From assembly GCF_037031225.1 (NCBI RefSeq), contig NZ_JAYEZN010000001.1:310001-374000 (forward strand): a stretch of DNA of 64,000 nt. The letters run 5' to 3'. Position numbers and translations under genes: made by a program. Origin of the DNA: Halorientalis sp. LT38. GTDB taxonomy: Archaea; Halobacteriota; Halobacteria; Halobacteriales; Haloarculaceae. The notes beneath the pieces were generated by a model. The model did no database searches and was not told where the DNA came from. It worked only from the letters and a program-made list of their open reading frames with translations. The stretch's first letter is position 1. Every line of letters starts with the position of its first letter. Shown piece by piece: positions 54,514 through 59,683 of this stretch.

Positions 54514-56448
54514 TCAACTCGCCCGCTTCTGAATCTCTTCTCGCAACACTTCGCTGACGAGGTCGCCGTCGGCCTGCCCGCGAAGCGCGCCCATGCACTC
54601 GCCCATCAGCCCCGAGAAGGCCTGCATTCCCTCCTCGTCCACCTGCTCGGCGTTGCGCTCGACGACTTCCACGACCGCCTCGCGGACCTCGTCCTCTCCG
54701 GCGCTGCCGAGGTCCTCCTCGTCGGCGGCTTCCGCGGCCGAGTAGTCGGGGTTCTCCGCCAGCGCGGTGAGGAGGTCCGGGACGCCCTCCTTCGCGATCT
54801 CCTCCGCGGCGAGCAGGTCGAACACGCCCCGGAAGTGCTCGTCCGTCAGGTTCTCGACCGGCACGTCGTCGCGGCGCAGTTCCGTCACGTCGGACTCGAC
54901 GGTTCGCGCCGCGAGGTTCGGGTCGACGCCCATCTCGACGGCCGCCTCGAACAGGTCCCAGCGGCGACCGTAGGCCACCTGCTCGGCGACGCCCTCGCCG
55001 AGACCGTGGTCGGCCTGGTAGCGCTCGACCTTCTCGGTGAGTAACTCGGGCGTCTCGACCTCGGCGGGGTCCGGTTCGACCGGCGGCACGTCCGTTTCGG
55101 GGTACATCCGCGCCGCGCCGGGGAGCGGTCGGAGGTAGCGGGAGGTGCCGTCCTCGTTGGCGTCCCGGGTCTCCTCGGGAACCCCGTCCATCGCGGTCTC
55201 TGCGCGCTCGGCGACGGCCTCGATGGCCATCTCGGCCGTCTCGGGGTCGTCAGCGACGATCGCGACCGCGTCCTCGGGTTCGGCATCCACGGCGTCCCGG
55301 AGGGCGTCGACCTCCTCGTCGGTGACGCCGTAGGCCGGCAGTTCGTCGGTGTGGAAGATGCCGCCCGCGCCGTGGCGCTTGGCGTGATCGGAGAATTCCG
55401 TTCCAAGGCGGCGGTCCGGCTGGATCTCCCGGCCGACGATCCCGTCGAAGCCCTCGAGGCGAACCGCTCGGACGACGCCGCCCGAGGACAGGGCACCGCC
55501 GATGACGCCCGAGTCCGTGTCTGCTCGCGGGCTTTGCCCGCTCGCATGGTCCGAGGCGCTTCGCGCCTCGCTATCCTCGAAGACCTCGGTCACGTCCTGT
55601 GGATCGCCGACTGCAGCGTTTCGCTCGTTCAGTTCGTCTGCGATCTCGACCAGTTCGACCTGCCGCCGGACCTCGTTGCGCACGAGGTCGTCGATGTCGT
55701 CGAGGCTCTGGACGCCCTTCATCTCGATGCGCGCGCCGTCGGCGATGGAGACGTTCACGTCCTGGCGGATGGTTCCCAGGCCGCGCTTGACCTGCCCGGT
55801 CGAGCGCAGGAGCATCCCGATCCGTTTCGCCGCCTCCTTGGCCTGTTCGGGCGAGCGAATGTCCGGTTTGGTCCCGATCTCGACGAGGGGAATGCCCAGG
55901 CGATCGAGGCTGAACCGGACGCCCACCTCGGTCTCTTCGACGCGCTGGCAGGACTCCTCCTCGAGCAGCATGTCCTCGATGCCGACCGGACCCTCGCTGG
56001 TCTCGATCTGCCCGTCGTTGGCGACCAGCATCGATCGCTGGAAGCCGGTCGTGTTGGAGCCGTCGACGACGATCTTGCGCATGACGTTGACCTGGTCGAC
56101 GACCTGCATGTCGAGCAGTTGGGCGATCTCCATGGTCGTCTCCATGGCTTCCCCGTCGACGCGGTGGGGCGGCTCGTCGTCCTCCTCGACCAGACAGGTG
56201 GTATCGTAGGCGAGGTACTCGAACTCGCGGTCGACGCGGCTCTCCTCGAGGGCGGCGTCGTCGATCTCTCCCAGTTCGGACTTGGTGGGGTGGAGATAGC
56301 GGGTGAACCGACGCGTCGACTCGGCGGGGTCGCGCAGCGCGGTCGGACACGCGCAGAACAGTTTCGTCTCGGTGTCGAGTTGCTGGTGGATCTCCAGTCC
56401 GGCCACCAGCCCCAGTTCCTCGTAGTCGAAGGCGTCCGCGTCAGTCAT
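54514..56448 (-). CDS. gatE: Glu-tRNA(Gln) amidotransferase subunit E
   Basis: 644 aa. GLVAGLEIHQQLDTETKLFCACPT opens the GatB/GatE kinase-like domain; VNVMRKIVVDGSNTTGFQRSMLVANDGQIET, IPLVEIGTKPDIRSPEQAKEAAK and LGTIRQDVNVSI follow. After the archaea-specific AspRS-like insertion, the YqeY-like tail ends the protein. With GatD (not in this window) it converts Glu-tRNA(Gln) to Gln-tRNA(Gln). Residues ~293-314 hold an unusual SEARSASDHASGQSPRADTD insertion within the conserved segment that normally reads like DVTDVF-DTxSGVI. Confidence 0.94.
   Translation of the reverse strand: MTDADAFDYEELGLVAGLEIHQQLDTETKLFCACPTALRDPAESTRRFTRYLHPTKSELGEIDDAALEESRVDREFEYLAYDTTCLVEEDDEPPHRVDGEAMETTMEIAQLLDMQVVDQVNVMRKIVVDGSNTTGFQRSMLVANDGQIETSEGPVGIEDMLLEEESCQRVEETEVGVRFSLDRLGIPLVEIGTKPDIRSPEQAKEAAKRIGMLLRSTGQVKRGLGTIRQDVNVSIADGARIEMKGVQSLDDIDDLVRNEVRRQVELVEIADELNERNAAVGDPQDVTEVFEDSEARSASDHASGQSPRADTDSGVIGGALSSGGVVRAVRLEGFDGIVGREIQPDRRLGTEFSDHAKRHGAGGIFHTDELPAYGVTDEEVDALRDAVDAEPEDAVAIVADDPETAEMAIEAVAERAETAMDGVPEETRDANEDGTSRYLRPLPGAARMYPETDVPPVEPDPAEVETPELLTEKVERYQADHGLGEGVAEQVAYGRRWDLFEAAVEMGVDPNLAARTVESDVTELRRDDVPVENLTDEHFRGVFDLLAAEEIAKEGVPDLLTALAENPDYSAAEAADEEDLGSAGEDEVREAVVEVVERNAEQVDEEGMQAFSGLMGECMGALRGQADGDLVSEVLREEIQKRAS
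55524..55569 (-). repeat. Double-hairpin element inside gatE
   Basis: Two perfect hairpins lie side by side in the coding sequence. On the plus strand they read GCGGGC-TTT-GCCCGC (55527-55541) and GAGGCGC-TTC-GCGCCTC (55553-55569). They encode, on the minus strand, the SEARSASDHASGQSP part of GatE. The 22 nt at 55524-55545 match 59623-59644 with one mismatch (in opposite orientation). Confidence 0.8.
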
Positions 56449-59278: not shown

Positions 59279-59683
59279 GATCGTCCGGGAATCGGGTCGG
59301 AGTGGTCCTAAAAGGATGGGATTCGGGCGGGCGACCGAAGGGAGCCCGCCGACTGAGCGAGCGGCGACGAAGGAGCCGCGAGCCGGGTGGACGAGCGAGG
59401 CGCGGACGAGCGGCGGGAGTCCACGGATACGGGAACGGGGAGCGGAGCGACCCGTGACCGAAGCGAGTCCTCGGAATGTGCGAGCGGCGACGAAGGAGCC
59501 CCGAGCCGGGTGGACGACTGAAAGGAGACCACCGAACGGGGAACGGGGAGCGAAGCGAGCCGTGAGCAGGGCGGGCGACGCGACCGGAGGGAGCGCGCCC
59601 GCCAACTGAGCGAGCGGGGAGAGCGAGCGGGCGAAGCCCGCGAGGGGAACTGAGTGACCCGCGAGCCACGAGGCGGCTGGCGA
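59279..59683. repeat. Repeat-filled gene-free region upstream of fumC
   Basis: This 405-nt gap between fumC and the next gene is made largely of degenerate purine-rich repeats (GAGCGAGC, GAAGCGAG, GGAGC). A 38-nt block at 59357-59394 recurs at 59480-59517 with one mismatch (123 nt offset), and a second block starting at 59431 recurs at 59539 (108 nt offset). A palindrome GCGGGC-GAA-GCCCGC-like element sits at 59623-59644. No gene is credible; the frame continuous with fumC encodes antisense-like, repetitive protein. Confidence 0.8.

Follow-up and report, generated by a model that had tools for sequence, protein, structure and literature searches.

A 54-bp segment of gatE in Halorientalis sp. 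LT38 is very probably one copy of a dispersed, short, two-hairpin haloarchaeal DNA element inserted in frame into protein genes. The window, a stretch of 64,000 nucleotides, was analyzed together with the remainder of the genome, its congeners and haloarchaeal genomes at family, class and phylum level. Orthologous genes lack the segment, related copies recur in the genome and throughout the class, the hairpins are conserved by compensatory change, and confidently coding copies use essentially one reading frame. The element is a protein-coding palindromic element of the Rickettsia (RPE) type.

Most palindromes known to code for protein come from Rickettsia and Wolbachia, plus one methanogen, and how they move is a long-standing question. 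The present family is class-wide in free-living archaea; close relatives differ in whether a site is empty or filled, and the hosts include essential enzymes (the amidotransferase, tRNA synthetases, a DNA polymerase and enolase). As haloarchaea include genetically tractable models, both movement and the effect on proteins become testable. The element also explains many loop insertions in haloarchaeal proteins; such loops confuse alignments and indel-based phylogeny.

The inserted segment and its fold

The first-pass annotation had reported a GatE peptide without family counterpart at 55505-55572, encoded by two perfect hairpins in a row with stems of 6 and 7 bp and 3-nt loops. The quoted peptide was correct, but only residues 292-309 (DSEARSASDHASGQSPRA) are unmatched, the final DTD being native. 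Its coordinates were slightly shifted relative to those set by empty-site alignment (Table 1), and both hairpins are indeed perfect with 3-nt loops, on stems of 8 and 6 bp. That a small palindrome had inserted in frame into the essential gatE is supported by the 54 extra bases relative to empty alleles and by the dispersed copies.

Table 1. Positions of gatE, its insert and related elements in the window
Feature	Position	Strand	Basis
gatE, Glu-tRNA(Gln) amidotransferase subunit E, host gene	54514-56448	minus	ORF of 644 aa; NCBIfam NF003107, E 1.1e-271
Inserted element, 54 bp, GatE residues 292-309	55522-55575	minus	Empty-site alignments with 7 congeners and other haloarchaea
Hairpin 1, 8-bp stem CGAGGCGC/GCGCCTCG, loop GAA	55552-55570	minus	Sequence, folding; compensatory variation between copies
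Hairpin 2, core GCGGGC AAA GCCCGC at 55527-55541 plus 3 outer pairs	55522-55546	minus	Sequence, folding; copy-to-copy variation
Related element, intergenic	59339-59387	plus	R1 match, E 0.0015
Related element, intergenic	59462-59510	plus	R1 match, E 1.3e-4
Related element, intergenic	59609-59649	plus	R1 match, E 0.0029

Folding z-scores of the insert were -4.4 (DNA) and -4.8 (RNA), none of 200 shuffles folded equally well, and the second-best genomic copy of its DNA was found at E 1.1e-16 with 94% identity; the two-hairpin fold is therefore not due to chance. In searches with R1, a covariance model of the two-hairpin element, the GatE insert was the best match (72.6 bits).

For GatE, structural data tentatively favour the expectation, raised at first reading, that the insert sits in a surface loop. 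In a structure model built from an alignment with few insert-bearing rows (mean pLDDT 74.5), residues 294-308 formed a loop below 50 pLDDT, flanked by better-predicted segments. The solved methanogen GatE (2d6f) has a gap where the insert sits.

Dispersal in the genome and empty alleles in the genus

In-frame copies, near-identical or conserved in structure, were found in at least 12 other conserved genes of the LT38 genome; hosts include enolase, LysZ, dihydroorotase, CrtI, CobN, Elp3, LeuRS, AhcY, GcvPB and DNA polymerase II. The GatE insert DNA matched dihydroorotase best (94% over 52 nt), then CrtI, enolase, CobN and LysZ, and one further copy adjoins a tRNA-Gly gene. Searching with hairpin 1 alone brought in TrpE, which has a single hairpin, and an Elp3 copy with variant arms. 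The names dihydroorotase, CrtI, enolase, CobN, LysZ, TrpE and Elp3 are presumed from translations and family knowledge, without a profile search. R1 gave 39 matches at E ≤ 0.1 in the same genome, 17 of them below 1e-4. Further hosts, assigned by NCBIfam/Pfam, were adenosylhomocysteinase, GcvPB, an ATP-dependent helicase, LeuRS, the DNA polymerase II large subunit, MoeA, siroheme decarboxylase, NadC and an aconitase C-terminal domain protein. The inserts are mostly single, 16-20 aa long and in soluble enzymes, and element length varies between copies (about 48-60 nt).

Within the window, a 23-nt near copy of hairpin 2 (59623-59645, 2 mismatches; 0 expected in shuffles) lies inside the last of the intergenic elements in Table 1. 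At least three related hairpin elements, separated by similar palindromic sequence, are thus clustered between genes at 59339-59649 on the plus strand. Elsewhere in the genome (L007 1480-1610; C1 ~2685880-2686010), tRNA-Gly(GCC) and a repeat of that tRNA's 3' end (GAGTTCAAATCTCGGCCAGCGCA twice) flank a copy, an arrangement that resembles the remnant of an attachment site.

In each of seven genes (GatE, dihydroorotase, CrtI, CobN, enolase, LysZ, Elp3), comparison with the orthologues of the seven congeners revealed empty alleles in the genus. The GatE, dihydroorotase, CrtI and CobN inserts were absent from 7/7 congeners and are private to LT38 within the genus; filled alleles were present in 4/8 (enolase), 3/8 (LysZ) and 2/8 (Elp3) genomes. 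In the enolase copy of genome G081 (L200) the palindrome is lost and the frame kept, as expected of an old insertion. TrpE is a weak case of insertion: its congeners have another linker of similar length at the same place. Inspection of eight alignments by eye gave neither a consistent target-site duplication nor a consistent target motif at the empty sites; short repeats (GAT/GAC, ACGGCGAG) occur at some of them.

Occurrence across haloarchaea, plasmids and viruses

The hairpin-1 pattern CGAGGCGCGNAGCGCCTCGG, with at most 1 mismatch, was present in 99 of 146 genomes of the family, and a backward-pattern control gave 0 in every genome. At family level R1 matched 123/146 genomes, and at class level 198/292. 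In a phylum sample of 247 genomes there were 28 positives, all belonging to the window's own order, with no match outside it. The same element occurs in dozens of other housekeeping genes across haloarchaea, and is a class-wide, short, apparently mobile DNA. This answers a check proposed with the first reading, a search for the motif in unrelated proteins: the same DNA and peptide were found in many, in LT38 and across haloarchaea.

Nine haloarchaeal plasmids carried matches, most of them within genes annotated independently (cobN, eno, a mismatch repair gene, P-type ATPases). As for viral vectors, none of 50,697 phage records matched, and a single viral contig had hairpin 1 only. The sole Rfam match, to a miRNA, was sub-threshold and was taken as chance.

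Known palindromic elements and movement

Rickettsia palindromic elements (RPE; Ogata et al., 2000, 2002) are about 150 bp long and occur in intracellular bacteria, according to PMC10969869 and PMC3733652. As described there, they are short palindromic repeats placed in frame in unrelated housekeeping genes, to whose products they add a peptide. The resemblance to RPEs noted at first reading was upheld on function: a repeated palindrome, in-frame copies and insert-free orthologues were all found. By published description, the haloarchaeal element differs in being 48-60 nt long, GC-rich, built of two hairpins with variable arms, and spread through a whole class of free-living halophilic archaea. 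Other coding palindromes are the Wolbachia protein-coding palindromic repeats and the Methanocaldococcus jannaschii palindromic repetitive elements with coding potential (Suyama et al., 2005, cited in PMC2996958). The latter are an archaeal precedent; both come from other lineages, and R1 matched nothing outside the window's own order in the phylum sample. PARCELs are likewise palindromic coding repeats dispersed by transfer, but they are tandem 25-aa amphipathic repeats in membrane proteins, unlike the inserts described here, and the study describing them found none in archaeal genomes (PMC2996958). Searches of an open-access library yielded no earlier description of haloarchaeal coding palindromes.

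The PATEs and SMRs of Haloquadratum walsbyi are transposase-free palindromic mobile repeats of a haloarchaeon and lack target duplications; in PATEs the palindromes lie near the termini, and one form of 52 bp consists of the termini alone (PMC3119063). REP sequences with GTAG/CGTC tags, associated with RAYT, are palindromes of 20-40 bp that sometimes lie within genes (PMC3733652, a survey that does not mention haloarchaea). The element could be a REP- or PATE-type derivative of IS200/IS605, its hairpins being terminal palindromes for a Y1 HUH transposase (TnpA or RAYT) and its movement single-stranded. Its two sub-terminal hairpins, without clear target duplication, resemble the PATEs (PMC3119063), and Y1 proteins are widespread among the family's genomes (95/146). 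Against this, the LT38 genome has no Y1_Tnp or RAYT (PF01797, 0 matches), and copy number is the same in Y1-bearing and Y1-free genomes (n = 146; medians 5 and 6, P = 0.93; Spearman -0.05, P = 0.55). Both 30-copy genomes, each an incomplete MAG, were without detected Y1. The 54-nt GatE copy holds neither a GTAG nor a CGTC tag, and the element is mostly coding where REPs are extragenic. PATEs, moreover, are tied to IS605-type transposons and are not described as in-frame protein insertions in the text available (PMC3119063), whereas the haloarchaeal element shows no Y1 link. An IS200/IS605 origin is thus considered unlikely.

We infer instead that the element is a hairpin-forming cassette that would be copied into new sites by putative machinery supplied in trans. 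It is probably selfish or near-neutral and invites comparison with the coding palindromes of Rickettsia.

Reading frame and encoded peptide

Nearly all confidently coding copies encode the consensus SEARSAS[DE]x[AS]SGxxPR in one reading frame. Direct reading shows all six frames of the GatE copy to be open, yet one is in use. By GC3, 22 of the 30 loci returned by a hairpin-1 search blind to coding were coding, and 21 of these 22 used one frame; the chance of this under equal frames is 5e-15, a value that overstates independence, as some loci are orthologous. The same frame prevailed in nearly all confidently coding loci found with R1, both in LT38 and class-wide. R1 was trained mostly on coding copies and coding fractions from its searches are biased upward; about 9/30 of its own-genome matches look non-coding. 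These counts are compatible with random insertion followed by removal of all other frames, and a frame-aware mechanism is not required. One locus considered as a different frame (L233) was rejected: a longer hairpin-1 loop shifts the register, and its hairpin-2 half is in the usual frame.

The peptide appears constrained (pS 0.22, pN 0.06 at shared sites; small counts), with S11, G12, P15 and R16 strongly conserved. Within genes, insertions would persist only where their frame yields a polar and acidic loop rich in Ser, Gly and Pro (SEARSASDxASGxxPRA), which is presumably tolerated at protein surfaces, and the peptide would come under purifying selection after insertion. In two copies (L115, L129) the hairpin-1 loop is inverted, so that SEALRAS replaces SEARSAS; the hairpin looks as though it had been flipped at its site. 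A small Ser/Thr-rich protein (MSTDNTTDASTETESKCGAS...) has the element near its start in many genomes (L124, L130, L139, L140, L285, L288).

Pairing of the stems

Stems were paired in 99.3% of cells in the first alignment (23 copies) and in 98.8% in a wider one (70 distinct copies); the latter was fitted to R1 and hence leans to structure, while the former was not so fitted. Pairs changed on both sides numbered 4 (23 copies) and 9 (70 copies), and in the 70-copy alignment there were 78 double-changed cells vs. 17 in shuffles and ≤10 in slid controls. Arm variants including GAGGCGC, GCGGAAC, GTGCCGC, GAGTCGC and GAGGGAC each occur with the matching partner. The most variable pair, in hairpin 2, joins two codon third positions and was seen as GC, CG, UA and AU; because two wobble positions are joined and all four Watson-Crick types are present, the peptide cannot explain this pair.

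This bears on the proposal that the peptide is a selected functional module (a flexible acidic linker, or a signal or binding motif) and the palindromy a by-product of its codons. The four conserved residues and pN < pS speak for a module. The compensatory changes nevertheless link code-free positions, as in the wobble-wobble pair, intergenic copies exist, the hosts share no common pathway, and carriers are patchy among close relatives. We regard a functional module as improbable.

It is very unlikely that the hairpins were made in place by template switching in quasi-palindromes, with no mobile element involved. Template switching would account for joint arm changes and for the inverted loops of L115 and L129, but copies in unrelated genes are 94% identical over 52 nt and agree in hairpin order and spacing, and filled alleles exceed empty ones by about 54 nt. 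Template switching can explain neither, and the dispersed copies largely refute it. It may act on the arms after insertion. For the inserted element, the conserved pairing means either that mobilisation needs the hairpin or that template switching keeps repairing the arms. Chains of three hairpins were observed in L125 and L130, which suggests modular growth, or one element inserted into another.

Shared sites in GatE and other enzymes

In the alignment of haloarchaeal GatE proteins, about 10 rows were uninformative (wrong frame) and the readable rows were counted. Of these, only two MAGs, QS_6_64_34 (L023) and QS_9_67_15 (L028), had a counterpart of residues 292-309. Most sequences, those of all seven congeners included, lack the segment, which is consequently not ancestral to the family, as the first-pass annotation had anticipated. 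A clean empty gatE site was present at DNA level in all seven congeners, Halorientalis regularis and Halorientalis persicus, and none of the 9 insert-free sites read at DNA level held remnants of an insert.

The three carriers belong to three genera and each stands beside an insert-free sister, so that the tree requires three changes even when only well-supported branches count. Both boundaries of their inserts coincide to the nucleotide. The window and L028 inserts are identical at 52/54 bases, linker included, while the adjacent 60-nt flanks are 70-78% identical; given the flank divergence, the chance of such identity is 2e-5 to 3e-3, depending on the flank chosen. An ancestral loop lost in most lineages would fit three carriers in three genera with a common site and nearly the same sequence, but is scarcely credible, given the nested insert-free sisters, the precise and repeated losses it would need, and the methanogen GatE (2d6f) without such a segment.

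Judging from the sequences, random insertion alone would not explain the nucleotide-exact sharing of the GatE site. Tolerant loops explain repeated use of the region, not sharing to the nucleotide. Short-tract recombination, homing-like re-entry or repeated precise loss may account for it, and some occupied sites may have passed from lineage to lineage through recombination, or been filled by more than one insertion. Tentatively, the element could be recognised by hairpin shape and not by sequence, re-entering the same nucleotide of the same gene across lineages in a homing-like manner, through an enzyme with no known connection to elements of this kind.

Other loops were also used repeatedly. 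A second GatE site, in the loop after REAVDA, is filled in two families (L114/L254 in G002; L319 in G324) by elements that differ in sequence. The enolase loop is used by at least 2 different elements, one of which also occurs in Haloterrigena. One loop of adenosylhomocysteinase (AhcY) is filled in two lineages with different hairpin-1 arms, GCGGAAC (L230) vs. GAGGCGC (L260). Genome G081 holds, besides a GatE that is 89% identical, a second one at 81% (G081:C73:6-1775), either a duplicate gene or contamination.
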